Virus record (IMG/VR): IMGVR_UViG_3300030108_002336
Location: 1 to 47,983 of that record
Source: a virus
DNA: 47,983 nt
Reading direction: 5' to 3' (one strand)
Shown here one piece after another: positions 3,292-44,252 of this stretch. The translations under genes and the position numbers were made by a program. The notes beneath the pieces are model-generated. The model was not told the DNA's origin. It worked only from the letters and a program-made list of their open reading frames with translations, and made no database searches. Within the stretch, counting starts at the first letter, position 1. Every line of letters begins with the position of its first letter.

Positions 3292-3633
3292 TCAGCAGTT
3301 CCATTTACGGAGCGCCTTGTTAATTCTAGAGTTTGGATCTCTAGCTGTTTTAGCGCTAGTTAATCTCTTCTTCATGCCTTTCATCCTTGCGCAGAAGGAC
3401 TTTCTACGCTTTGCAGCTTTACTACCCTTCTTAAGTTTAGAAGGCTTTGTAGTTACGGCAGTCTTTAATTTACTACCAGGATTAGCTGCTCGGTAACGTC
3501 TAACCCCTTTGGCTGTAAGACCTCCAGATGGAGACTTGTCTCCACTCTTAACAGAGAATTTTTTAGGCATCCTGCCTTTACGAGTCTTACCTCCTTTCTT
3601 TAATACTGTATATGTAGAACAACCGCAACTCAT
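3292..3633 (-). CDS. Small basic conserved phage protein (DUF6321-like)
   Basis: A 113-residue, extremely Lys/Arg-rich protein with signatures GLTAKGVRRYRAANPGSKLK, then KAAKRRKSFCARMKGM and a C-terminal ALRKWNC. I recognise this combination from a small family widespread in marine phages, which I believe is DUF6321; its function is unknown. Cys residues occur at the N-terminus (SCGCS), within SFCARM and at the very end, so metal binding or disulfides are possible. High charge suggests DNA or RNA binding or packaging with the genome. It lies between the zincin-like protein and the exported thioredoxin-like protein, abutting both. Confidence 0.75.
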   Translation of the reverse strand: MSCGCSTYTVLKKGGKTRKGRMPKKFSVKSGDKSPSGGLTAKGVRRYRAANPGSKLKTAVTTKPSKLKKGSKAAKRRKSFCARMKGMKKRLTSAKTARDPNSRINKALRKWNC

Positions 3634-3971
3634 TAGAATGCGCTCATGATTACTTCATCAACAGCTTCCTGAACATCTTTTTGAGTGGCTTCTAACTGCA
3701 TCATAATGTTTGCCTGAAACCTTTGCACTTCTTCTCCATCGTTAAACACAATAACGGTAGGTACTACCACGATCTTATGTTCAGCTTGCATTGCAGGTTC
3801 AGCAGCGATGTCTATACGTTTGCCCTTACAGTCGCTCAAGTTATCAATCCAATCTACACTGTTAGCTGCGTTGAAACTAGCGTTAAATTCAACAACGCAC
3901 ACCCCTGACTCTGGTATCTTCATACCAAGAGAAAATGCTGCGAACAAACATATGTAGATCAAATGCCTCAT
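3633..3971 (-). CDS. Exported thioredoxin-fold-like protein
   Basis: A 112-residue protein with a short N-terminal signal peptide (residues 1 to about 17, MRHLIYICLFAAFSLG). The rest fits a thioredoxin fold: beta strand CVVEFNASFNAAN, then helix, then the diagnostic VVVPTVIVFNDGEEVQRF with the cis-Pro at residue 71. The CxxC active site expected after the first strand is replaced by FNAAN, so it cannot be a normal dithiol oxidoreductase; it may act as a chaperone or binding protein in the periplasm. Its neighbours upstream encode other envelope-directed proteins. It overlaps the preceding gene by 4 bases. Fold call fairly good, role unknown. Confidence 0.7.
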   Translation of the reverse strand: MRHLIYICLFAAFSLGMKIPESGVCVVEFNASFNAANSVDWIDNLSDCKGKRIDIAAEPAMQAEHKIVVVPTVIVFNDGEEVQRFQANIMMQLEATQKDVQEAVDEVIMSAF

Positions 3972-4198
3972 TTATTTTTTTTACCCACAACTTCTTCCAT
4001 TTGCTTAAAAGTCTTAGGGTTACTTGCAAGACCTTCAATAAGCGCTCCTGCTTCTGCTTTAATCATTGCGCCCATATCTGCGTAAGTTTTACCTCCCATA
4101 GCGTACATAGGAGCTTCAGCTTTACCGCCTCCTGGCATTTTCTTTGGTGGTGTTGTCCCACCCATCATTTTCTTTTTTACTTTGTAGTGTGATGGCAT
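3968..4198 (-). CDS. Small Gly/Met/Lys-rich hypothetical protein
   Basis: A 76-residue basic protein. The first half is low-complexity (MPGGGKAEAPMYAMGGKTYA), the second half a predicted helix ending in a Lys-rich tail. The stop overlaps the thioredoxin-like gene start by 4 bases. Short glycine-rich YAMGGK stretches of this kind also occur in larger virion proteins of this phage (for example the internal protein at 15959-17224), which hints at a virion role, but no family is recognised. Confidence 0.6.
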   Translation of the reverse strand: MPSHYKVKKKMMGGTTPPKKMPGGGKAEAPMYAMGGKTYADMGAMIKAEAGALIEGLASNPKTFKQMEEVVGKKNK

Positions 4199-4208
4199 AA
4201 TTTTTTAG

Positions 4209-4493
4209 TTATTGTAGTTTATCTATTTTTTCTTCGATGCGATCTAGATCTTCTTTTAGTTCTGATACATCTTCTTGAGTTGTCATAATCGTTTGACGCA
4301 CTAGCTGATCTTTCATATCAAACTCCATGCGTGTAATCTCTGCAGGTAATGGTTCGGGTAATTCTTTAGCTAAAGCTATGTCTGCTTGAAGAGCAAACCA
4401 CATTCCTATAAGAGCTGCTAGCCCTGCTGCACCCATTCCTATTGTTTTTAGGTCTAGTGTTACTTTAGTATCTTCTCCAATTTGTTTAGCCAT
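4209..4493 (-). CDS. Single-span membrane protein with C-terminal coiled coil
   Basis: A 94-residue protein with one predicted transmembrane segment (about residues 16-37, IGMGAAGLAALIGMWFALQA), a Pro-rich turn (LPEPLPAE), and an acidic heptad-like coiled coil to the C-terminus (EDVSELKEDLDRIEEKIDKL). This architecture is shared with inner-membrane spanin subunits and some holin accessory proteins. It lies four genes downstream of a holin-like gene in the same transcript, so a lysis role is reasonable, but no outer-membrane partner is evident beside it. It abuts the beta-barrel gene with a 1-base overlap. Confidence 0.6.
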   Translation of the reverse strand: MAKQIGEDTKVTLDLKTIGMGAAGLAALIGMWFALQADIALAKELPEPLPAEITRMEFDMKDQLVRQTIMTTQEDVSELKEDLDRIEEKIDKLQ

Positions 4494-5593
4494 TATAATA
4501 TCACGTAGTTTAGTCCAACAGAAAAGTCATGCCATTCTCGATTCCAATACCTATTGTATTTACCTTCAAGAAACAAGCCTAGACTCTTGTCTATTCTCCA
4601 TCCAAAGATAAGACCTAATCCGTAATCTACCCACTGCCCCCCTTCGGTAGTCTCAAAGTAAGAATACTCACCTCCAGTGTTCAAATGATAAGGCATTACA
4701 CTAGCCCAACTGTGCATCCAAAACTCTTTAGAATACTGATAATAATCGTACCCAATAACTAAAGAATGATTCCATTGATACGGTAGCTCACCTCTCTTGC
4801 GATCTACATAATCGCTAATTACATCTGGTATAATTACTTGTTCCCATACGTCAACACTATTAGCTACAAGCGCACCGTTAGGATCAAAGTATTCACCAGC
4901 CTGAACGTCAACAGTATAACCCTCTTGTATAGCAAGACTCGTGTAGTGTAGGTTACCATTAGACAACACCCATTCATCTAAAGGATTGTACCCATATGGC
5001 TCTGATATTCTCTGAGCAATACCAATATTAAAACTAAAACGCTCATTTACGTTTAACCTATATCTTTCAGATGCTTCAAAATATTCTACATCAGCAAAAC
5101 CATCTTGAAGATATTCTGTTTTAGCTATCCAGTTTTTAGCTACATATCGAAGAAAGTAGTCTTGATCGAGAAAGTTTTTACCTTGCTGTCTACGCCAGTC
5201 AGCTTCAAACAAAAACTCAAATCCTTTGACTCTACCTATATTGGCTGCATCGCTATAAGACTTTTCAGTACCATCGTAAAATACCTGAGCTCTATTCTCG
5301 TATCCAAATCTAGCTATCTTACGTACACCAGCTGTAAATGAGTAATCAAAAGGGGTTTCCTCTACATTCGTTTGCAGACCATTTGTTACTGAGTATATAT
5401 TGTTGTCAGCTACAGAGTTACCTCCGCTAAATGCGGTGTAGAATGTGGCAAACTTAAATGTTTTTTTTAATGTCTGTCCCTTTGCATCTAAACTCGCACC
5501 AAGTATAAACACGACAAGCATTATTGCCATGTAAATAATAAACTCTAACCTTCTATACTTACCGCAGTTATTTAATTCCTCTGGTGACATCAC
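4493..5593 (-). CDS. Predicted outer-membrane beta-barrel protein
   Basis: A 366-residue protein with a hydrophobic export segment at about residues 19-38 (IYMAIMLVVFILGASLDAKG), followed by QT, a cleavage context common in Bacteroidota. The mature part has alternating aromatic and polar strands (YENRAQVFYDG, FEFLFEADWRR, HSLVIGYDYYQYS, YNRYWNREWHDFSVGLNYVIL) and ends in a hydrophobic strand, as outer-membrane barrels do. An alternative start at Met22 (base 5530) would give a more normal signal peptide; 5593 is kept because it overlaps the preceding gene by 4 bases. It may be inserted in the host outer membrane during infection, but could alternatively be a virion beta protein. Confidence 0.6.
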   Translation of the reverse strand: MMSPEELNNCGKYRRLEFIIYMAIMLVVFILGASLDAKGQTLKKTFKFATFYTAFSGGNSVADNNIYSVTNGLQTNVEETPFDYSFTAGVRKIARFGYENRAQVFYDGTEKSYSDAANIGRVKGFEFLFEADWRRQQGKNFLDQDYFLRYVAKNWIAKTEYLQDGFADVEYFEASERYRLNVNERFSFNIGIAQRISEPYGYNPLDEWVLSNGNLHYTSLAIQEGYTVDVQAGEYFDPNGALVANSVDVWEQVIIPDVISDYVDRKRGELPYQWNHSLVIGYDYYQYSKEFWMHSWASVMPYHLNTGGEYSYFETTEGGQWVDYGLGLIFGWRIDKSLGLFLEGKYNRYWNREWHDFSVGLNYVIL

Positions 5594-5772
5594 ACTTCAA
5601 AACCAAAGTTTAAGATCATAAATCTAAATTTACTGCAATGACCTTTCTTATCACACTTAGGACATGGGCAGAATGAAATTTCCAGAACAGTAACTGTTCC
5701 TATTCTTAAATTAATCTCGTACTTTTCTTTCTTGTTGCCAGCTTTCCAACTGTTTATCCAATTAATTTTCAT
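5590..5772 (-). CDS. Small Cys-rich (zinc-knuckle-like) protein
   Basis: A 60-residue protein carrying a compact Cys cluster, CPCPKCDKKGHC (about residues 36-47), that could coordinate one zinc ion. It is preceded by a beta-rich stretch and followed by hydrophobic residues. It is linked by 4-base ATGA overlaps to both the T9SS-targeted protein upstream and the barrel gene downstream, which supports it being a real gene despite its size. No signal peptide is visible. Function unknown. Confidence 0.55.
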   Translation of the reverse strand: MKINWINSWKAGNKKEKYEINLRIGTVTVLEISFCPCPKCDKKGHCSKFRFMILNFGFEV

Positions 5773-8276
5773 GACTTAATAATTTTTTTCTTAATAATTC
5801 TTTTGTTATGTTCAATAATAACCTGGTAGAGGCCTTTAGGTAGGGCGTTAAGGTCAATTGTTTTTTCTGTGGTCCCAACCACTACAAGCTGTCCCACTGC
5901 GTTATACACACTTGTTATTACTATGACGGGAGCTCGCACATTTAGAACATCACTCGTAGGGTTAGGATATACATCGTATACATCATCTACATCATACACA
6001 CCTTGAGGCCACCCTTGCTCACAGTAAGAGTAAAGATCAACACAGGTTTCGTCCCATGCAACTTCACAGCAGTAAGGATCAATATCTATAATCCAAGCAT
6101 AACATCCATCGTTTAACCAGTATGGTACACCAGGTCCGCCTATGCAACCTGCATCATACAAACAAGCTTCTTCGTCAGGGGTGTTAGCTAACTCATTGTA
6201 ATTAAATGCATCAGGATCCATGCAGTCAACTAATACTTCAATGCACGAGCCGTTGTCTGTATTAGCCAGTTCATCATAATTAAGGGCATCAGGATCAGTA
6301 CAACCATAAATGTAAGGTATGCAGCTAAAATCTTCTGTGTTAGCGGATGAGTTATAGTTAAGCATGCTAGGGTCAGTGCAGCCATAAATATAAGGCTCAC
6401 AATTAGAAGGATCGTATTCGGCATTTGCGGCAGGATTATAATTAAACATAGTATTGTCAGTACATCCGTATACAAACGGCTCACACTCTCCGTCATCTAT
6501 GTTTGCATTCTCGTTATAGTTATAAGCTCCTGGATCCATACACCCGTATACATAAGGTATACAGCTATCATCATCTACGTTTGCAGATGGCAAGTAATTA
6601 AACGCTAGTGGGTTCATACATCCTAGAACTACAGGTATGCAACCCTCATTATCTACGTTTGCATCTTCATTGTAGTTAAACGCTTCCTCATCCATACAGC
6701 CGAACACAGCTACTGTTTCACAGCTACCATCATCATAGTCAGCTTCATACCCTTGAGTGTAATACTCTAAGTATCCTGCTTGAGAACATCCAGCTTGGTA
6801 GTAACAACTACCATCTTCTGTATTAACATCAGAGTCGTAGTTCTGTGCGTTTTCATCTGTGCATCCATAGCTATATGCTTCACAATAGTTACCACATCTT
6901 AAATAAGGAGTATACACTTCATTAGGATCCACTGGATCTAACCATGGATTAGTACCCTTCTCAAATACTACATTACCGTTAGGGCTTATTAGCTTAAAAC
7001 CACATTGTGATACGTCAGTGCTTGTTCCACCTTCACCAAAGAAGCTGCCAAACTCTACTTCATAAAACTTAAACTCTACGTGCGTTTGAGAGCTTACTGT
7101 TATGTCATAGAATGCTTGTTCCTCTGTGCAGGTAAATGCACCAATAGGCTCACCATCTTGCACAACACCTAGATAAGATCCATCCCAGCCATCTCCACCT
7201 CCATCAAACAGCATAAGCGTGTATTCACACTCAGGAATGTAATCCATGATATTTGCCTCTGGATCATAGTTAAATGCATTCTCGTTAAGGCATCCTGGAA
7301 CAGCAGGTGTAATACATAAGCTAGAGTCGTTGTTAGTAGCCAACGAATTAAATTCTAAGTAGTCTGGATCTAAGCAACCAAATGGTGGGTTATCTGGAGG
7401 ACAGGGATTTAGTAAGTTAGGTTCGCTAATCGCTTCATATCCGTAGTCAGGATTCTGACCTTCAAATGGCAATATGCTGTATATTGTATTACCACACTCT
7501 GTATACACAAGAACGTCTCCATCGGTAAATCCTCCTGTTGTAGATCCTGCAAGTCCATCTCCAAACGTGTCGTATATGTTAAATGTAAACTCTACTCCAA
7601 GTGGTATGCAGTATTCTGTTGTTACAGTAAGTCCTTCTGTTTGATAAAAACCTATATCTTCGCTAGCAAGAACGACTGGTATGCTATCTGTTGTAACTAT
7701 CTCCCAGCTCGTTTCCCACTGAGAGTATGTATCTGCAGTTATACTTACATAGACTTTTTGGGTAAATATATTACCACATTCTGACACTTCGCCATACTGA
7801 CAAGACTCTCCAAACTCACTCTCTATACCAGCAAAAGGATTATAGTTTGTAGCTAAAGAATCTAAACACCCAATACCGCAGTTAGGGTTTTCAACAATTA
7901 GTGTATCCATAACTCCACCAGGAGACTCTACTATAAAATAGTATTCATCGTTTGACACAGGTGAAGACGGAACACCACCATAAAAACTACCATTAAACCA
8001 CTGACCGTATGGAACAAACTGTAGGTTATCTAAGTCGTCACCCCTATAGAATCCAACTGGATTACATCCAGGCTCAGGTATAGTCCACATAACCTGCAGC
8101 TGACCTTGGTTTGGAGCAAAAGGAAAGCAATCAATCTGACCTTGTAAGCCTTGGACCCCACATTGAATAGGAGGCAGACTGTCTATAGGTGGTATACTAT
8201 CCAATCCTGGCTGACTAAAAGCATTGCTTAAAGTAAATACAATTAACAGTATTGTAATCAGTGTTTTACGAATCAT
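5769..8276 (-). CDS. Secreted Cys-repeat protein with T9SS C-terminal sorting domain
   Basis: An 835-residue protein built like a host cell-surface protein. Residues 1-21 form a Sec signal peptide ending SNAFS/Q. Two glycine-rich GDG motifs (YDTFGDGLAGS, FDGGGDGWDGSY) occur in beta domains. About twelve repeats of the form GC.DP.A.NYN..AN.DDGSC follow, seven of them in tandem at residues 525-709. A further Cys module (DPYCCEVAWDETCVDLYSYC) lies at about 710-755. Residues 768-835 match the type A T9SS sorting domain (Por_Secre_tail): DVYPNPTSD, then YNAVGQLV, LPKGLYQVII, and a Lys-rich end. In Bacteroidota this tail directs secretion through the type IX system and anchoring to surface glycolipid. 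The gene sits between the holin and other envelope proteins, inside the late operon. Confidence 0.9.
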   Translation of the reverse strand: MIRKTLITILLIVFTLSNAFSQPGLDSIPPIDSLPPIQCGVQGLQGQIDCFPFAPNQGQLQVMWTIPEPGCNPVGFYRGDDLDNLQFVPYGQWFNGSFYGGVPSSPVSNDEYYFIVESPGGVMDTLIVENPNCGIGCLDSLATNYNPFAGIESEFGESCQYGEVSECGNIFTQKVYVSITADTYSQWETSWEIVTTDSIPVVLASEDIGFYQTEGLTVTTEYCIPLGVEFTFNIYDTFGDGLAGSTTGGFTDGDVLVYTECGNTIYSILPFEGQNPDYGYEAISEPNLLNPCPPDNPPFGCLDPDYLEFNSLATNNDSSLCITPAVPGCLNENAFNYDPEANIMDYIPECEYTLMLFDGGGDGWDGSYLGVVQDGEPIGAFTCTEEQAFYDITVSSQTHVEFKFYEVEFGSFFGEGGTSTDVSQCGFKLISPNGNVVFEKGTNPWLDPVDPNEVYTPYLRCGNYCEAYSYGCTDENAQNYDSDVNTEDGSCYYQAGCSQAGYLEYYTQGYEADYDDGSCETVAVFGCMDEEAFNYNEDANVDNEGCIPVVLGCMNPLAFNYLPSANVDDDSCIPYVYGCMDPGAYNYNENANIDDGECEPFVYGCTDNTMFNYNPAANAEYDPSNCEPYIYGCTDPSMLNYNSSANTEDFSCIPYIYGCTDPDALNYDELANTDNGSCIEVLVDCMDPDAFNYNELANTPDEEACLYDAGCIGGPGVPYWLNDGCYAWIIDIDPYCCEVAWDETCVDLYSYCEQGWPQGVYDVDDVYDVYPNPTSDVLNVRAPVIVITSVYNAVGQLVVVGTTEKTIDLNALPKGLYQVIIEHNKRIIKKKIIKS
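6150..6704 (-). repeat. Seven tandem Cys repeats of about 26 residues
   Basis: This part of the T9SS-targeted protein gene encodes seven successive units of 26-28 residues, each starting GC(M/T)(D/N) and containing a (F/Y/L)NY(N/D/L) core, an (A/V)N(A/V/I/T) step, an acidic DD/DG turn and a closing Cys. The protein repeat is much better conserved than the DNA, so it is an old protein repeat rather than a recent DNA duplication. Each unit has two Cys residues and may form one disulfide. Confidence 0.9.
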
Positions 8277-8710
8277 TACTTAGATTTCTTTTCTATAGTT
8301 CTGCCAGCAAAATATGCACCAAAAGCGGTAAGCATAAGTAGCTCAAGCAAAGATACATAAGAGTCTTTTACGTTAAATGCGACGTTATCCATACTGTCAA
8401 TCATCATAGTGATCATAAACATAGCCATAAGGCATATAAGAGTCACAGGGCGTATAAGTTTAGCCAGCTTAACATCACTCCCCATATCAGCTTTCCAACG
8501 CTCTGTTACGTTTTCTTGGAAGCGAACCTCTGCATCGATCTGACGTTGAGCTTCTTCTGAATCAACCTTTGGATCCTTATCGATAAGGTTTTTTACTACA
8601 CCCAGTCCTCCACTATCTGGTAGAAGATCTCCTACTACACCTAATACTTGAGGTGCTTTTTCTGCTAACCAAGATCCTAGCTTGGTGTCTTTTATTTTCT
8701 TTTTACTCAT
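8276..8710 (-). CDS. Holin (GTA/3TM-holin-like)
   Basis: A 144-residue protein with a soluble N-terminal half and two predicted membrane spans, about residues 86-105 (IRPVTLICLMAMFMITMMID) and 118-138. The segment WKADMGSDVKLAKLIRPVTL before the first span, and the GRTIEKKSK end, resemble the family of holins named for gene-transfer-agent release (GTA_holin_3TM). Residues 20-40 could form a third, weaker membrane-interacting helix. It would form the inner-membrane lesion that triggers lysis. No classical endolysin is adjacent; the DUF5675-like protein at 46039-46563 or the zincin-like protein are candidates for wall or envelope cleavage. Confidence 0.75.
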   Translation of the reverse strand: MSKKKIKDTKLGSWLAEKAPQVLGVVGDLLPDSGGLGVVKNLIDKDPKVDSEEAQRQIDAEVRFQENVTERWKADMGSDVKLAKLIRPVTLICLMAMFMITMMIDSMDNVAFNVKDSYVSLLELLMLTAFGAYFAGRTIEKKSK

Positions 8711-11700
8711 TATTCTCCTTTTTTAGGGTAAAACTCATAATATTTTAATAAGCCTCTTTCCATAAGCCTCATCTCTTTTTGTTCTAACTCATATATTTTA
8801 TTTGATAATCTTTCAAATTCAGCAGCGACCTCAAGATTAAACAAATCATACTCTAGATCATCTCGCTGTTTTCTAAGAAGGTTTAATTCTTCTTTAAATA
8901 AATTTATATCATTATCTATATCTCTGAAAGTTTCTTCTATACCTAAAGCGCCTTCATATCGAGCTTTAGCTCCACCTAAAGTATCTTCTACAGCAGTATA
9001 ATCAGCTATCCTTTCGTCACGACTTGGCAATGGCTGCTCTTTGTTTGTAAGAAGATCTTCTACATTACCAAACTCAGCTAGATAACTTCTTACAACTTGT
9101 TTTGCATCATAGTAGTTACCATATGCAGCATATTCGTTGTCTTGACCATAAAACTTCTTGATCAAAGGCCATGTATCTACGTTATCTTGATTTGCAGCAA
9201 CATCTAATATCATATCTCCTGCATCACCAAACATGACGTATGAGCTACCTAAATAGTTTTTAAATAGATAGTTAAGAAGATCAGGATTGTAATCAAAATC
9301 TCCACTTATCTGCTCGCTACCTCCGCTGATTGAACTCTGGTTTATAAAATTAAATATGTCTTGCATAAATGCTGGAGAGTCTTCTGCTTGAGAAGCCCTT
9401 GACTCACCTGGTTTAGGTTCTCGAACAATACGATTCCCAAAACCATCTATGTTTTGAGAAACATCAATAAGTGGGGCTATAGGATCTATTTCAGTTAAAG
9501 CCTTTACAACTAAACCTGGCTGCTCAACTACATCAACAGACTTCGTAGGATCATCTTCTTCCCCTACACCTCTGAAATGAACTGGAGATAAGTTCTTTAC
9601 GAGAGAACTAGCAAGGAACATACTCCCATCAACAATATCTCTTTCTCCACTTTGCACCTCAGCTATCGTCAAACCTATATCCATAATACCTCCATATCCA
9701 TAACCTTTAGGAATCTCAGTCCTTTCTCCTGTTGGAGATCCTGGATGCATAATTATAAAGTTTCTTTGTTTTATTTGATCGGGGATCTTATCATAAAACG
9801 AAACTCCATCTGTGTCTACTGCCGATACAGCTTGATTAAATTGAGTCAATGTATACGCAAAGCCGATTCCTCCGAGAAGAATCTTCTGTCCATTTGTAAG
9901 CCTTTGGTAAGGGTTCCTTACATTGCCCTCGACATCTGTTTTAGGTCGTAAAGCTATTGTATTTTGCACGGTAAAGTCAGCACCCTGCAAACTAGCATTT
10001 AAAAAGAACTTAGCCCAAGCAAGTTTTGGCGTAGTAGCACCAGATCTATTAAAGTCTATACTCACATCTTTAGCTACAGCCGCAGCGTATTCTGGAATTA
10101 CACCTTGGTTTCTTAAACCCTTATACACTTGAAACCTATACACATTTTCAAATGTGTTATTAAAAGACTCTACCATGCCAAGAGTATTGTCTTTTAGCCA
10201 TGTCATAGCTTTCCTTCCTCTTACTGTAGCGTCAGTTTCAGCTGCTAAAGTTTTACTTAAATTTTCTAGCGGAGTTTGGTAGGCCCATCCAGTTTGACCT
10301 CCGTAAGATTTAAACTCTTGATATAACACACTGTCTTTACCTCTGTAATTACTACCTGGACTAAACTCATCTGCTGCAATAGCTTTAAAAGCTCTCATAA
10401 ACTCGCCTCTACCTACCAAATGAGAATCACGCACTAATTGTCTCGTGTTTATAGGTTTACCTTCAGCATTGTATAAAGCAAATCCAAACTTTTTCTCTGC
10501 TGCAGCTAATGCATTGACTACTGATGTTTGATAGTCTCTTACAGTATTACCTAAGAAGAAAGTTGTAGAATACTGCGTATACATTTTAGGTATGTTGCTT
10601 AAAAGTCTTTTACCTTCATTCATAAACCTTACCATCTGTTCACTACCTTGAGGTCCTTGAAGTTTAAAAGCCCTAGCGTATACTTCATTAGCAAAGGTCA
10701 TATATTTTTTCTCACCGTTTATATAAACCATTACGGTATTCTTTGCTGCAGAGTTACCCTCATCAGAGATAGTGTAATGCTTTGGGTTGGGGTTGTTTAG
10801 TAGTAATTCATACAGACCTGTTAAAGCTACATTCTTTTGTCCAGCTATATGTATTTGTGTGTTTTGATCTACTGTTTTAGCTAAAATGCTACCTGTTTCA
10901 TCACTACGACCAGAGGCTTTTCTTAGATTGTCTGGTACACCGCTTTGACCAGATCTAGATGGGAAGATTGCCTCTACAATATTGTTGTCAATAAGTTGAA
11001 TGCTACCATCCATAGACTTCATTCCATCGCCAGTTAAGGTGACATAGTTTTCAGCACTAGTCTGCAGCTTGTCGTACATAGCTTGATCTATAAAGCCATA
11101 TCTTAAAGCAGCATCCCTAGTGTTTTGCTGAATCGCTCTATGCTCTTCTCTAACTTTCTCAAAAGCCAACTTTAAATCTTCAGGTAAAGAGTTTAAGAAG
11201 TTAGCAGCTTCTTCGTCAGCCATACCGCTACCCCTTCTCTCAGCGATCTTTTCCTCTAAAAAAGTAATTCGCTTATCGTCCTGAGCTGTTCTATTTTCTT
11301 TAGCTTTTAATTTGTTCAGCTCTGCCTGGTTATCAGCTAAAACTTTTTGATTCCTTTCTGGAGCAAACTTAGCAACCGTCCATCTATCATACAGGCCTAT
11401 GATACTTTTATCATACACCTCTGGTAACGCTTCATACAGAGAAGCATCTGTGGTTTTCTGAAGCTGTCTTAGCTGATCTGTCAATCCTCCTTTTTGTGTA
11501 CGCAGATTGATCATTTGTTCAACTTCGTATGCTGCTCTTGATGTAGCCAACTTTTGCAGCACTTCAAAATCTTGATTTATAGGTACTCTTGCCCCAGTTT
11601 CATCTGTATCCAAGGCCTCCATAATACTTCTTTGTAGCATATTTACATCTGAATACTTATCAAAAAATTCATACTGCCACCACTTAGCTAAACCTGGAGT

Positions 11701-13917
11701 AAATGAAAGTTGTAAAGGTCCAGCATCTGGTCCTGGCTCAAATATATCAGCAGGTGGAGCTGTAACATCAGCATCTAAAGTTGGATCTACCTCATATAGT
11801 TTTTCTATGTTTAACCTCTTTTGTTTTATTGTTTCCAGTTGATCTCTTAAACCTTTGGCTAGCTCTGAATTAGGATCTTCCATCTTCATAAGCTGCCTCT
11901 GTATAGAATTGTATTCTCTATGAAGATCTACTACGTTGTCATAGTCTTCTGGATTCATACGTAAATAAAAGTTTTCATCCGCAGCAACTGTGCTAAGTCT
12001 TTGCTCCTCTAGATAAACTAATTGTTGTTCAGCATAAATCTTATCGTTTCTGCTATATCTACCTTCTGGATCACGCAAGATTTCTAAAAACTTAGACCTC
12101 TGTTGATGTATTCTTACATTACCTCCATTTCTCCCAACCTGATCTCTAGCCAAAGCATTTGCTACCTGAGCTTTTGTTTGGTGAAAGTTTATTAATGAAC
12201 CAGTCCCCACTGTACCGATTGTTATAGGGACAGTCCCTAAAGCCACATCATATCCTACCTCAAATATCTCATCAGCGCTAGCGTCTGGATTTAAACTCAT
12301 GTATTGCACCATGGCTGCTGACGACGATACCACACTATTTACTGGAACAGAATACCCCATGTTTGTAAGGTGTGCATTCCACCAGCCATTCATGTTAGGG
12401 CCTATGTTCCCAGCACTACCAGCTCCTTTTAAGGCCTTTAGGAAGAACAATGAGGTAGCGCCTGTAGCTACAAAGTCAGTACCAAATACAGTGCTTAAAT
12501 GACCAAATCTTGCTGAATCATCAAAACCTTCTTCATATTGAGCCATAAGCTCTGGATCACCGCCAGTAGCTTCCATCATTTCATAATACCCTATGGTTAC
12601 ATCATCTTTAGTATATGTCTTAAACATTGGGTGGTTACGAGTCCTTGCAGCTTCTACACTTGTGCTTAATGTTGCACCTTCTAAACCTATTAGACCTGTG
12701 GTTACCCACCAAGGGGCAGCTGTACCCCCAGTAAGAGTTGTTGTTACGGCAGCAGATGGTATTAATACAGCCATTGTTGGTGTAGCTTCAGCAACAAAAC
12801 CACCCATCTGCATTAACCCATTCGCAAATTGACCGTCTGTAAAACTACCACTCATGCTTTCTGTAAACTGAAGAGTATTTGCACGTATTTCTTCGGCACG
12901 CTCCCTCATTTCAGTCACAGTTTTTGCATCTCCACCAAACATATTGTAAATTCCATTTACAAGATCAATACCTGCAGCCTCAAATTTATCTACAATATAC
13001 CCTGAAAATTTAGGTGTAAATCCTGGACCTCCTATACCTATATATCCACTAGGCTGAAAGCCGTCAAATTGTAAAAACGGAGTATTACCTACTTGCCCCT
13101 CACCAGTAAGATCTAACATAGATCCATAGTTCTCTAACATGAACTGCTCCATATGCAACAAAGCTTCCTTGCTTTGACGCACGTTAGCAGGCATAGCATC
13201 GTGCAAGCTTGTTACAACATTCTCATTTATCTGTTTATTTAAAAGTTTTCTTACAGCAGCAACTTTGTCTGCCATAATATCTTCTTCGCTACGTTGAGGA
13301 GCGTAAGCACCGTAAGGACTTGCTACTGGCGTTCCATATAAAGGAACTTGTATGTTGTTTGCTGATAAATAATCTTCATTCTTTGCTAGCTCAGTAGCTA
13401 TACCCTCTACATTTCCATTAACAGAATTCCACCACCAGTCTGAACTCCCAGCAAAGTTTGTAAACATACTTGCTATCTCTGGGGTAATGTAAGACTGATC
13501 TAAAGATTCCATAGTCCTTATGAAACCACTTTTCTGAAAACCATCGTAGTGTATAGGATCTATTTCTAAAGCAGCCCTATTTGCATCTGTATCCTCCCAT
13601 GGAGTTACCTCCCCAGTTATTGCATTTACAGATAAATCTGGCTGTCCGTTAGCAAGAGTATTTACTGTAGAATTATTCTGATTTAAAGGTACAACCGAAG
13701 AACCAGCTCCTTGTTGTTGTTGAGGATCTGTACTCTGCCCTGATTCCGTACCTTCCTCTCCCGAAACAGAGGGCGAGATCGAAGTATCGTCTTTTTTTTT
13801 TAAGTACCTGTCAAAATCAGCAACACCTTTCATCTGTAATTGCATGCCAATTACATCATCAGAAAAGTTATTATCACGTTGTAACTGTATATAACCTAGG
13901 ATTTCTTCTTCGTCCAT
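8710..13917 (-). CDS. Giant polyvalent-type internal virion protein (LPD38-like region)
   Basis: A 1735-residue protein. The N-terminus has an acidic helix, then a Ser/Gln/Pro-rich linker (about 45-90). Residues about 370-580 contain several Ala/Gly/Val-rich membrane-active-looking segments (for example AVLIPSAAVTTTLTGGTAAP). Around 1050-1350 is a region like large polyvalent-protein-associated domain LPD38: VYINGEKKYMTFANEVYARA, then PKMYTQYSTTFFLGNTVRDY. The C-terminal 100 residues are a charged coiled coil. Polyvalent proteins are delivered into cells by phages and other elements. With the two genes upstream it forms a probable set of internal proteins ejected with the DNA. No catalytic motif of an RNA polymerase, peptidoglycan hydrolase or ADP-ribosyltransferase was recognised by eye. 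Confidence 0.7.
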   Translation of the reverse strand: MDEEEILGYIQLQRDNNFSDDVIGMQLQMKGVADFDRYLKKKDDTSISPSVSGEEGTESGQSTDPQQQQGAGSSVVPLNQNNSTVNTLANGQPDLSVNAITGEVTPWEDTDANRAALEIDPIHYDGFQKSGFIRTMESLDQSYITPEIASMFTNFAGSSDWWWNSVNGNVEGIATELAKNEDYLSANNIQVPLYGTPVASPYGAYAPQRSEEDIMADKVAAVRKLLNKQINENVVTSLHDAMPANVRQSKEALLHMEQFMLENYGSMLDLTGEGQVGNTPFLQFDGFQPSGYIGIGGPGFTPKFSGYIVDKFEAAGIDLVNGIYNMFGGDAKTVTEMRERAEEIRANTLQFTESMSGSFTDGQFANGLMQMGGFVAEATPTMAVLIPSAAVTTTLTGGTAAPWWVTTGLIGLEGATLSTSVEAARTRNHPMFKTYTKDDVTIGYYEMMEATGGDPELMAQYEEGFDDSARFGHLSTVFGTDFVATGATSLFFLKALKGAGSAGNIGPNMNGWWNAHLTNMGYSVPVNSVVSSSAAMVQYMSLNPDASADEIFEVGYDVALGTVPITIGTVGTGSLINFHQTKAQVANALARDQVGRNGGNVRIHQQRSKFLEILRDPEGRYSRNDKIYAEQQLVYLEEQRLSTVAADENFYLRMNPEDYDNVVDLHREYNSIQRQLMKMEDPNSELAKGLRDQLETIKQKRLNIEKLYEVDPTLDADVTAPPADIFEPGPDAGPLQLSFTPGLAKWWQYEFFDKYSDVNMLQRSIMEALDTDETGARVPINQDFEVLQKLATSRAAYEVEQMINLRTQKGGLTDQLRQLQKTTDASLYEALPEVYDKSIIGLYDRWTVAKFAPERNQKVLADNQAELNKLKAKENRTAQDDKRITFLEEKIAERRGSGMADEEAANFLNSLPEDLKLAFEKVREEHRAIQQNTRDAALRYGFIDQAMYDKLQTSAENYVTLTGDGMKSMDGSIQLIDNNIVEAIFPSRSGQSGVPDNLRKASGRSDETGSILAKTVDQNTQIHIAGQKNVALTGLYELLLNNPNPKHYTISDEGNSAAKNTVMVYINGEKKYMTFANEVYARAFKLQGPQGSEQMVRFMNEGKRLLSNIPKMYTQYSTTFFLGNTVRDYQTSVVNALAAAEKKFGFALYNAEGKPINTRQLVRDSHLVGRGEFMRAFKAIAADEFSPGSNYRGKDSVLYQEFKSYGGQTGWAYQTPLENLSKTLAAETDATVRGRKAMTWLKDNTLGMVESFNNTFENVYRFQVYKGLRNQGVIPEYAAAVAKDVSIDFNRSGATTPKLAWAKFFLNASLQGADFTVQNTIALRPKTDVEGNVRNPYQRLTNGQKILLGGIGFAYTLTQFNQAVSAVDTDGVSFYDKIPDQIKQRNFIIMHPGSPTGERTEIPKGYGYGGIMDIGLTIAEVQSGERDIVDGSMFLASSLVKNLSPVHFRGVGEEDDPTKSVDVVEQPGLVVKALTEIDPIAPLIDVSQNIDGFGNRIVREPKPGESRASQAEDSPAFMQDIFNFINQSSISGGSEQISGDFDYNPDLLNYLFKNYLGSSYVMFGDAGDMILDVAANQDNVDTWPLIKKFYGQDNEYAAYGNYYDAKQVVRSYLAEFGNVEDLLTNKEQPLPSRDERIADYTAVEDTLGGAKARYEGALGIEETFRDIDNDINLFKEELNLLRKQRDDLEYDLFNLEVAAEFERLSNKIYELEQKEMRLMERGLLKYYEFYPKKGE

Positions 13918-35525: not shown

Positions 35526-36092
35526 TTAAAATACTTTTTTAGGGAGGTAATATGTAGTAGAATTAAAATACATATTAGGCTCAGGGTTTACAGAAATAGC
35601 TTCATATGAAACACCGTCTATGTTATGAATAGTATTAGCAGAAGTATTTGTATTCCACCATGTAACTTTTGCTCCAGACTTACATAATGATGCTATAGTA
35701 GTAGCAAATAAAGTCCAGTCATCTTCCCCCCATGTATCGTAAAATACTCCATCGTAAGTAGACAAAGAATCTTTTACTTCATACCAATCTCCCTCTACTA
35801 TGGTGACATTAGGTTTATCTGCAGCCCAAGCTTTAGCTTTTTCTATAACTTGAGGGTGGTTTTCTACTATAGTGTGAGATGTTATAGAATTAGCTTGAAT
35901 GTGTCCAGCGGATATACCCATACCAAATCCTATTTCTAATATATCTCCACCTCCTTCACACACATAATCAGCAGATGCTTTCATTATAGGATCTTCCCAA
36001 GACATCATGACCTGCATTTCCCCTCCAAATGCCTCATCTGTATAATATATTCTATCAGACTCAAATACTAATGTTTTGTCTATATAACCCAT
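35526..36092 (-). CDS. SAM-dependent methyltransferase, GAMT/RMT2-like
   Basis: A 188-residue protein with features of guanidinoacetate N-methyltransferase and the arginine N5-methyltransferase RMT2: SWEDPIMKA (residues 31-39), the SAM-binding loop ILEIGFGMGIS (51-61), the acidic strand end HTIVENHP (73-80) and VFYDTW (116-121). GAMT enzymes use the WEDP region and a carboxylate-rich pocket to bind a guanidino group, so the substrate may be an arginine side chain or small guanidino compound. It is sandwiched between virion protein genes with overlapping or abutting ends, so modification of a virion protein or a host factor is possible. Family good, substrate unknown. Confidence 0.82.
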   Translation of the reverse strand: MGYIDKTLVFESDRIYYTDEAFGGEMQVMMSWEDPIMKASADYVCEGGGDILEIGFGMGISAGHIQANSITSHTIVENHPQVIEKAKAWAADKPNVTIVEGDWYEVKDSLSTYDGVFYDTWGEDDWTLFATTIASLCKSGAKVTWWNTNTSANTIHNIDGVSYEAISVNPEPNMYFNSTTYYLPKKVF

Positions 36093-37549
36093 TATGCTAT
36101 TTTCACAAATGTGTTATCTGGATCAAGGAACATTTTTTTACTGCTTACATTAAAAGAGTACCCAAGTATTCTAACAAGTTGACCAGAAGAAGATGGAGCT
36201 GTAAGTGTAGCTTCTCCAGCTGTTGCCGACGCATATACTATTGCTCCTTCAGAATCACTCCCAGCGGTATATGCAGAAGCTAATGTTACACATCCTTTTA
36301 TAATCATACCATTTGAAGAGTTTCCACTTCCTGCAGCAGCTGTTGCAACACCAACTAATTGACTAGCTGTAGTCTCTGCATCAGCATCTATTAATGTCCA
36401 TGCACCGTTTCTTAAAACATATATGGCTCCAGCAGTAACGCTGTCATTACTAATTCCCGTTAATATTTCAGCGCCAGTTCCAAAATCACCAGCATTATTA
36501 CCGCTTATTGCGTGAACTATTGATCTAGGGGAAAGTGTGCCAGTTGATACATCTCCTGTAGTGTCAAACGTACTAGAACCTATATCTATATTACCAAATC
36601 CAGATGAAATAGATCCACTATCCAAAGCGCCAACAGTCGTTATAGCAAGGCCATTTATATCTGCTTGCGTCTGATCAGCTGTAGCGCCATCTTCTACATT
36701 AATAAAAGTTCTAACATTAGCTGCTGTCATTTCTGTAACAACCCCATCTGATCCTGCATTATTACCCAACATCCTTGCGTTAGTAACATTTTGAAGTTTT
36801 GCGTATGTAACTTGATCATCAGCTATATGAGCCGTATCTATAGACGCATCTACATAGTGCTCTGAATTAATTGAATCATCTGCTATGTTATCCCCATCAA
36901 TAGCATCATCCCCAATATTAGCGTGAGGCAAAACACCTGTTACATCAGCAGCTAAATCAATTTGATTTCTTGTAATTTCTTGTCCTGATATAGTTATATA
37001 GTCGGGCGTACCAGCTAGTGTGACATCAGTTGAATTCATATCATCAACTGCAAGATCAATAGTTCCATCAGCATCTTGATATGTCGCACTAATTCTAGTC
37101 TCTGTATTTCCAGTGAACATAGCACCAACTATATCCTGAACTTGTTCAGCGCTTAATACCGTATCAGTATCAGTGACTGTATTTGTAAAAGTAATCTTAT
37201 CACCAGATCTAGCAATAGAAAGTCCAGTGCCTGCCTCAAGAACTACATCATCTGTAGAAGAATCGCTACCTGTTAATCTAATTTTTTCTTCATCAGAATT
37301 ATCTCCATCAACACAAGAAATATTATAAGTAGGGCCAGCAGCACCTGTAGCCCCCGTTGCTCCTTGAGGTCCAGTAGCTCCAGTGGCTCCAGTATCTCCT
37401 TTAGGCCCTTTTTCAGTAACAACAATGCTAGAAACGGATGGAGAAGATACGCTTACGCTTGTTGATGTTTGCGTAAAACTTATAGTATTCCCACCAGATA
37501 CAGAAACGTCAACAGTATTACCTTGACTTGTCGTTACGTTTACACTCAT
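36092..37549 (-). CDS. Tail or head fibre with collagen-like repeat
   Basis: A 485-residue protein. Residues 1-45 are a Ser/Thr/Val-rich beta region, followed by nine collagen-like Gly-X-Y triplets (GPKGDTGATGATGPQGATG..., residues 48-74), which would form a trimeric stalk. Then come long beta segments with DAIDGDNIADDSINSEHYVD and MLGNNAGSDGVVTEMTAANV, typical of trimeric phage fibres, and a C-terminal domain ending in SSKKMFLDPDNTFVKIA. It overlaps the preceding gene by one base. Probably a trimeric fibre for host binding, with the receptor-binding part at the C-terminus. Confidence 0.78.
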   Translation of the reverse strand: MSVNVTTSQGNTVDVSVSGGNTISFTQTSTSVSVSSPSVSSIVVTEKGPKGDTGATGATGPQGATGATGAAGPTYNISCVDGDNSDEEKIRLTGSDSSTDDVVLEAGTGLSIARSGDKITFTNTVTDTDTVLSAEQVQDIVGAMFTGNTETRISATYQDADGTIDLAVDDMNSTDVTLAGTPDYITISGQEITRNQIDLAADVTGVLPHANIGDDAIDGDNIADDSINSEHYVDASIDTAHIADDQVTYAKLQNVTNARMLGNNAGSDGVVTEMTAANVRTFINVEDGATADQTQADINGLAITTVGALDSGSISSGFGNIDIGSSTFDTTGDVSTGTLSPRSIVHAISGNNAGDFGTGAEILTGISNDSVTAGAIYVLRNGAWTLIDADAETTASQLVGVATAAAGSGNSSNGMIIKGCVTLASAYTAGSDSEGAIVYASATAGEATLTAPSSSGQLVRILGYSFNVSSKKMFLDPDNTFVKIA

Positions 37550-43407: not shown

Positions 43408-43660
43408 CGTCTTGATAGTCATAAACCCATACAGGAGTTTTTTCTCCTACATAACTTCCAGCAACATTATATTCAAAATGCTCTATAGCATCCTCCATAC
43501 TCATGCCTTCTTCTACAAGTATATCTAAACACTTAGTTACACTGTATACAGCTCTTGGTTCTACACCAAATGTTACACCTGTAATGGCATCATCAAAACC
43601 ATCTGCAAGTAAGCACTCATATTCTTCTAAGTGCAACCATAATTCTTTTTTATCAAACAT
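43400..43660 (-). CDS. Conserved small phage protein (GFDDA...YVGEKTP)
   Basis: An 86-residue acidic protein read from the ATG at 43660; an upstream TTG at 43669 is possible but less likely, because the ATG gives an 8-base overlap (ATGTTTGA) like other genes here. The signature ADGFDDAITGV, AVYSVTKCLDILV, MSMEDAIEHFEYNVAGSYVG and EKTPVWVYD recurs in many phages and some bacteria. Function unknown. It is cotranscribed with the GroES-like gene. Confidence 0.68.
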   Translation of the reverse strand: MFDKKELWLHLEEYECLLADGFDDAITGVTFGVEPRAVYSVTKCLDILVEEGMSMEDAIEHFEYNVAGSYVGEKTPVWVYDYQDDE

Positions 43661-44252
43661 TTTCTTCAACTACATACATTAAATCTTCAGCTCTAGTTCG
43701 GTAATACTCTTTACCATCTATCTTAATACGATAGTCTCTATTTTGTTTAAATCCAACTACATCACCAACCTTTAAGCCTAGTTCTTCTATCCATTCAGCC
43801 ATAAACGCTACTCTTCCTTGAGTAGGAAGTTTTTCTTTTAATGAAACTATTTCGATTAAATCAGAACTTAATTCAGAATTCTGTTCTACTGGTTCTAATA
43901 AAGACCATCCAGCTAAAGGTTTAATCTCTCCAGTCTCTTGACATTTATATGCAATTGCTTGATTGTTTATAGTATGTTTATCATCATACCTAACTACATA
44001 ATGATTATCTTCACCTGTCAAAACTTGACCTTCATTTAATACAACTAAATGATGAAAATATAATGTGTCTCCCTCTTTAACTCCTGTATCGTATTTTAAT
44101 GGGGAACAAACTACAGGACCTTCAGTGATCCTATGCTCAAACTCACTTCCTTCGAATCTAGTATCTATATATAATTCTAGACCAGAGTCAGTCTTAATTG
44201 TGTCGTTGATTTGTTTTTCAAGTTCAACAACAAAAACATGTAAAGTATTCAT
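43653..44252 (-). CDS. GroES-like co-chaperonin
   Basis: A 199-residue protein with two features of the GroES (Cpn10) fold: KEGDTLYFHHLVVLNEGQVL in the centre and, at the C-terminus, GLKVGDVVGFKQNRDYRIKI followed by DGKEYYRTRAEDLMYVVEE, equivalent to the GD.V.F..Y...E.KIDG.EY...RE.DI..V of GroES. It is about twice GroES length, as in phage versions such as T4 gp31, with an extra charged middle (about 120-150). It probably joins host GroEL to fold the capsid protein. It is linked by ATGA overlap to the small Cys gene upstream. Confidence 0.72.
   Translation of the reverse strand: MNTLHVFVVELEKQINDTIKTDSGLELYIDTRFEGSEFEHRITEGPVVCSPLKYDTGVKEGDTLYFHHLVVLNEGQVLTGEDNHYVVRYDDKHTINNQAIAYKCQETGEIKPLAGWSLLEPVEQNSELSSDLIEIVSLKEKLPTQGRVAFMAEWIEELGLKVGDVVGFKQNRDYRIKIDGKEYYRTRAEDLMYVVEENV

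Follow-up and report, generated by a model that had tools for sequence, protein, structure and literature searches.

Phages that tag their own proteins for the T9SS of Bacteroidota hosts are already on record. In the passages drawn on here, Bellas et al. (2020, Nat Commun; PMC7468147) describe three T9SS-tagged cargo genes in 'Cryophage' that vary in allele between near-identical phages; they propose T9SS hijacking and superinfection exclusion, and suggest inter-strain competition for the Cryophage cargo. De Jonge et al. (2019) reported gut phage proteins of crAss-BACON cluster 2 that carry T9SS sorting domains and are encoded beside head genes (PMC6949934). A type A sorting domain (CTD) takes its protein through SprA with PorV, after which the protein is released or attached to surface LPS (PMC10994853, PMC11285876), and foreign CTDs are not always accepted across species (PMC11285876). 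In Cellulophaga, adhesins exported by the T9SS are candidate receptors for phages (PMC13288928).

A preliminary description of the DNA analysed here proposed that a phage gene uses the T9SS to place its product on the surface of the infected cell, and held such use to be hardly described. The papers cited above contradict the latter point, and the principle of phage T9SS use is known. The wider pattern reported below is, as far as we could find, undescribed: open-licence papers, preprints aside, yielded no description of the cassette, of its phage-only barrel and NxxN thioredoxin-like protein, or of head exchange on a fixed chassis. The mechanism first proposed is right in outline, but it is not new in principle and its unit is a cassette rather than a single gene; that reading missed that the gene has conserved cassette partners, is linked almost perfectly to a phage-only barrel, and carries an exchangeable head.

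The window, by which we mean the whole stretch of 47,983 nt analysed, belongs to an IMG/VR record of 60,947 bp in full. The open frame described at 5769-8276 is real, but its orientation needed correcting to the minus strand, the plus strand there being full of stops. It had been argued that this is a phage gene and not part of a host contig, and the contig agrees, encoding TerL (phrog_6681) and a portal protein (phrog_6547), both at E<1e-190, together with a virion structural protein. Host contamination is ruled out by the terminase, portal and holin on the contig, and by the absence of the barrel from cellular genomes save four MAG contigs. The nearest isolates by TerL, at 42-50% among the matches listed, include Flavobacterium phages elemo, and Cellulophaga phages are likewise among the 111 records from this comparison. 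Because these relatives infect Flavobacterium and Cellulophaga, the host is presumably a marine flavobacterium, which would possess a compatible T9SS.

Elsewhere the window encodes a phage GroES-like co-chaperonin (43653-44252; phrog_13932, E 6e-49) and, at 8710-13917, a 1735-aa protein, likely an ejected polyvalent protein, that is kin to the very large phage proteins phrog_14770 and phrog_616, giants of a type also present in Vibrio and Burkholderia phages. In other loci of our set, phage-encoded RNA polymerase sigma-factor-like proteins were recognised by eye (L080, record 54145-55050; L062:17248-18117).

Table 1. The cargo gene and its neighbours in the window.
Feature	Position	Strand	Remarks
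Holin-like protein, 144 aa	8276..8710	-	phrog_3427 E 1.6e-22; PF11351 E 0.0017, below cut-off
T9SS cargo, 835 aa	5769..8276	-	signal peptide aa 1-21; head 22-465; Cys repeats 466-707; Cys module 708-755; type A CTD 766-835
Type A T9SS sorting domain, codons and stop	5769..5981	-	about aa 766-835; TIGR04183 and PF18962 over cut-off
p60, conserved 60-aa protein, CPCPxC motif	5590..5772	-	homologues in 40 loci; 4-base overlap with cargo gene
Phage-specific outer-membrane beta-barrel, 366 aa, signal sequence	4493..5593	-	39-sequence alignment, AF2, Foldseek
p94, 94 aa, one membrane segment and coiled coil	4209..4493	-	mean column identity 67%; in 53/61 cassettes
p76, 76-aa basic protein	3968..4198	-	homologue among the loci only in the closest syntenic cassette, L062
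Thioredoxin-like protein, 112 aa, signal peptide, NxxN for CxxC	3633..3971	-	in 54/61 cassettes

A phage cargo protein with a type A sorting domain

The type A sorting tail read from the sequence held up against both domain profiles: TIGR04183 and PF18962 each match cargo residues 769-834, at 38.9 bits (cut-off 23) and 40.8 bits (cut-off 27), respectively. In an AlphaFold2 model of the cargo built on a 46-member alignment, the CTD is predicted as a seven-strand beta-sandwich at the extreme C-terminus (strands 768-834, pLDDT about 72-81). Foldseek aligned this model with the CTDs of NucA (8glk_D; TM 0.77, rmsd 2.4), FspA (8glj_D; TM 0.72) and mirolase (0.61), and a profile search of the PDB found 8glk_D (E 3.2e-7) and, more weakly, gingipain R2 (0.016); the NucA and FspA CTDs matched here are those solved within the F. 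johnsoniae T9SS translocon. The positions that we scored for conservation are those deemed important in such domains (PMC11285876, PMC10994853). Across 110 unique phage CTDs, the PxP and the D-motif Gly are present in 100%, G-x-Y in 97/99% and a basic residue in beta7 in 83%, and the window cargo has both the L-beta3-beta4 Gly and the beta7 Lys/Arg, which are functional CTD residues. TIGR04183 also matches 43/46 cargo homologues. We have little doubt that the window cargo is a true T9SS cargo.

At its other end the cargo begins with MIRKTLITILLIVFTLSNAFSQ, which reads as a signal peptide, as had been noted, and a crude hydrophobicity rule finds one in 90/99 cargo homologues. Because a signal peptide and an intact CTD occur together in a late operon product, the cargo would be expected outside the infected cell. 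The surface placement put forward in the preliminary description is supported to this extent, and we consider it likely, from these sequence features, that the cargo is displayed or released outside the cell.

The exchangeable head contains two GDGxx/GDGW beta domains. Profile searches found no recognised enzymatic or toxin domain in it, Foldseek with the whole cargo model returned nothing convincing for it, and the window cargo had no PHROG match. The protein contains 42 Cys in 835 aa. The pattern C-x-[DNE]...[NE][YF]...A occurs ten times in its body against 0.16 expected (2000 shuffles, maximum 3), and divergent copies at 472 and 498 bring the total to about 11-12, in line with the dozen or so repeats originally counted. 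The cargo, above all via its repeats, matches 138/198 Flavobacteriales genomes; host proteins of marine Flavobacteriales are rich in these repeats, with up to about 30 copies, and GC.D..NY repeats are found in cyanophages too, for example in an S-CAM3 protein annotated as virion structural. Being common in hosts and present in cyanophages, the repeats were dismissed as a signature of the T9SS or of phages. In a related phage, a repeat protein of at least 2442 aa, with GC...NYN repeats and without a T9SS tail, adjoins the cassette (L025:3-7331).

Two cargo homologues lack YPNP (L025:9352-12201 and L060:9-2090); their tail is a different, shorter one, TDLLGRPT...LLYIYSDGSIERKLI, perhaps a truncated sorting signal or an alternative one. 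T9SS-type tails are also encoded in L035 (a 297,623 bp contig), LR756502.1 (325934-326137) and LR745206.1 (298450-298620). Since tails occur on phage contigs of 298-642 kb, the T9SS tag is not limited to the podovirus-sized group.

A conserved cassette with a phage-only barrel

Downstream of the cargo gene lie, in order, p60, the barrel, p94, p76, the thioredoxin-like protein and a DUF6321 protein, with the holin upstream; all share one strand, and most of the junctions examined overlap by 1-4 bases. The adjoining holin had been correctly recognised, as had the 'other envelope genes' mentioned beside it. The ATGA coupling that had been described applies to the cargo/p60 overlap; the holin/cargo junction is TAATG, a 1-base overlap.

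The gene recurs in related phages, and a search with the cargo gave homologues in 78 loci. As a stronger test of linkage, we used loci chosen by the barrel alone, with at least 1.5 kb of flank on each side (n=61). A T9SS-tailed ORF lies within six genes of the barrel in all 61, one to three genes upstream in 58 of these, as against 0/482 of the more distant ORFs (>=100 aa) in the same loci; the thioredoxin-like protein and p94 accompany most of these barrels (Table 1). The tails were detected with a custom HMM, and TIGR04183 confirms 41/42 of its barrel-linked cargo proteins. The linkage does not stem from one clone, since clustering at 80% and 70% identity divides the barrels into 21 and 10 groups, respectively. 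A search of whole records with PF18962 hit 42/44 of them, 36 with scores over cut-off, almost always with a single match per record. Cargo, phage-only barrel, p94 and NxxN thioredoxin-like protein are thus a conserved phage cassette. Its order and setting vary: the cargo comes before the barrel in 73 cases and after it in 20, and the cassette is found at varying genome positions, near a holin in many loci and, in many lineages, amid head, portal or fibre genes in a locus where no holin was found. Some loci have a second T9SS-tailed gene between cargo and barrel (L112:8769-10001, L118:8439-10001 and L122:8619-10001), with a product of about 410-520 aa whose mature part begins QPDLIV.DLYTDS.

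AlphaFold2 models the 366-aa protein, from 39 sequences, as a 12-strand barrel (pLDDT 72.6), for which the NanC porin is the best solved match in Foldseek (E 4e-7); no Pfam family fits it. It was rejected as a PorP/SprF protein, with no match at E<=5 in 39 members and none in NCBIfam for the window member, and also as PorV, a 14-strand FadL-like barrel: the model has 12 strands, FadL ranks 16 with a low TM, and PorV is outside the top 50 listed. The barrel is a phage protein, because it has matches in at least 586 viral contigs against 4 loci in 84,980 genomes; these four are all on MAG contigs, most with the phage cassette. Among isolate phages, tblastn gave no barrel match, barrel and p94 were unmatched in 50,697 phage records, and no isolated phage carrying the cassette was found. 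One viral model in BFVD matches the barrel (E 8e-23, 22% identity).

The smaller partners are also well conserved. p94 has 20 invariant columns across 17 divergent members; its PHROG matches are weak and mostly to families without known function, and a virion structural PHROG is matched, weakly, in 2/17 members, which makes virion association of cassette parts conceivable. Homologues of the 3633-3971 protein match Pfam Thioredoxin in 11/17 cases at E<=0.01, the window member being below cut-off. NxxN replaces CxxC in 109/110 thioredoxin-like proteins, with the cis-Pro (VPT) retained; the CxxC redox active site is absent from the window protein, whose likeness is to the thioredoxin fold family only, and the replacement predicts that it is redox-inactive. 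This secreted protein would thus be a conserved redox-dead thioredoxin fold in 109/110 cassettes.

Head exchange on a fixed chassis

Barrel distances track those of the Cys module (r 0.75) and of the CTD (r 0.69) far more closely than those of the head (r 0.41); in 169 pairs the barrels are >80% identical yet the heads <35%. At the DNA level, L003 and L096 share 97.8% identity across the 7.6 kb that lead up to cargo codon 12, do not align from there until codon 630, and share 94.2% identity thereafter, and the alignment of L005 with L049 breaks at codon 21 and resumes at codon 671, with two short repeat matches between. About 600 residues of mature head are therefore swapped cleanly between near-identical phages, on a fixed chassis of signal peptide, C-terminal repeats, Cys module, CTD and barrel. 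Among phages of one head class, selection is purifying, with dN/dS values, approximate since dS is high, of 0.048 for the head, 0.046 for the repeats, 0.069 for the barrel and 0.256 for the CTD. Positive selection on the head was not seen (dN/dS about 0.05); its diversity arises through whole-head exchange.

A collagen-like, tail-fibre-like gene, which probably encodes a receptor-binding protein, lies upstream of the cargo in L005 (7020-8738), L046 and L049, and another is present in the window at 36092-37549. The C-terminal tip of this fibre-like protein is swapped between phages, and is common to the distant L033, L034 and L076 at 83-92%. Across L005, L046 and L049, the candidate tip of the tail fibre assorts independently of the head of the cargo. 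No strict pairing of head alleles with tail-fibre alleles was seen in these three, which argues against a strict receptor-by-receptor match.

Possible roles of the cargo and relation to known systems

Taken together, the data suggest that, while killing a cell, these phages also remodel its surface. The cargo would leave the cytoplasm via Sec, by its signal peptide, and then cross the outer membrane through the host T9SS by its type A CTD. The mature protein, variable head outward, would be displayed on or shed from the flavobacterial cell before lysis, with the barrel, p94 and the redox-dead thioredoxin-like protein probably holding it in place or assisting; by analogy with type B cargo and its partner barrel, the phage barrel may be a carrier or anchor. 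Surface receptors would be masked or displaced, so that rival phages would not adsorb and progeny would not be lost on the dying cell or its debris. We favour adsorption blocking on three grounds: the exposed head is the variable part, adhesins exported by the T9SS are suspected to serve as phage receptors in Cellulophaga (PMC13288928), and a coat made late would also keep progeny from being lost on debris. On the other side, the late position of the gene suits action at the end of infection more than early exclusion of superinfecting phages. An envelope cassette with a T9SS-exported cargo that blocks adsorption is our best explanation overall, and we are evenly divided on whether it is correct; that adsorption blocking is the main role of the cargo is a tentative proposal, to which we lend somewhat less than even credence. 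A dedicated surface-display system, in which the barrel, p94 and the NxxN thioredoxin-like protein form a carrier/anchor complex for the T9SS-translocated cargo and the heads are cartridges on a fixed chassis, strikes us as an unlikely elaboration.

Other readings start from the same genes. The holin, a spanin-like inner-membrane p94, the barrel and the surface protein could together weaken the outer membrane at release; the holin gene, which here directly precedes the cargo gene and in many loci lies close to the cassette, the single membrane segment of p94 followed by a coiled coil, and the apparent late operon with its 1-4 base overlaps at most junctions are all compatible with such a lysis module. 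However, many lineages have the cassette among head, portal or fibre genes, in loci that yielded no holin, profile searches gave no match to lysis families for the barrel, p94 or the thioredoxin-like protein, and head exchange with purifying selection inside a head class fits a recognition surface better, so that we regard a role in lysis as quite improbable. It is also unlikely, in our estimation, that the displayed or shed cargo acts, in place of an adsorption block, as an adhesin or competition factor, clumping cells, sticking to neighbours or particles, or benefiting the virocell. The abundance of the Cys repeats in host proteins of marine Flavobacteriales and the inter-strain competition suggested for the Cryophage cargo in the cited part of that work (PMC7468147) point this way, but the head has no recognised enzymatic or toxin domain, and the late gene position would leave little time for an ecological benefit except at release.

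The cargo might, finally, be a virion structural or receptor-binding protein whose tail is a host-derived remnant, given the similar Cys repeats in the S-CAM3 virion structural protein and the tail-fibre-like genes that adjoin the cargo gene in some lineages. A remnant would decay, whereas nearly every homologue retains the signal peptide (90/99) and the CTD (84/88) and the functional positions of the CTD are 97-100% conserved, under purifying selection; moreover, export by Sec and the T9SS would put the protein across the envelope from where virions assemble. We consider this reading highly improbable.

The cassette predicts that infected flavobacteria, which are major marine polysaccharide degraders, wear a phage-made coat. 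Phage use of the T9SS has so far been noted in isolated phages, and a four-gene cassette in hundreds of marine viral contigs makes it a general, testable strategy. The natural head swaps are ready-made allele pairs for adsorption assays, and neither the family of the phage-only barrel nor that of the redox-dead thioredoxin-like protein has a known function. A link between receptor biology and superinfection would follow, because T9SS adhesins are candidate phage receptors.

The F. johnsoniae type A substrates NucA and RemZ/RemA combine a signal peptide with a seven-strand CTD bearing the same motifs as the window cargo, which differs in being phage-encoded in a late operon and in having an unrelated passenger. 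In pairs of the SprB-SprF type, the gene for a T9SS type B cargo adjoins that for a PorP/SprF-like barrel; cargo and barrel lie side by side in the phage cassette as well, but here the sorting domain is of type A, and the barrel lacks a PorP/SprF match and resembles another fold best. Llp of phage T5 is a small periplasmic lipoprotein that acts on FhuA and, like similar phage proteins, blocks its receptor on the infected cell, and it resembles the cargo in the anti-adsorption role proposed, with no relation in sequence or pathway. The crAss-BACON cluster 2 proteins, unlike the window cargo, have BACON domains, belong to gut phages and were given no proposed function (PMC6949934). Cryophage is like the window phage in being a Bacteroidota phage with a type A sorting domain and allelic variation. 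Its cargo comprises an endoglucanase, a GH39 protein and a PA14 protein, as against Cys repeats and GDGW-type domains here, and the cited passages on Cryophage (PMC7468147) make no mention of the cassette of barrel, p94 and NxxN thioredoxin-like protein, whose linkage to the cargo is near-universal in the phages studied here.
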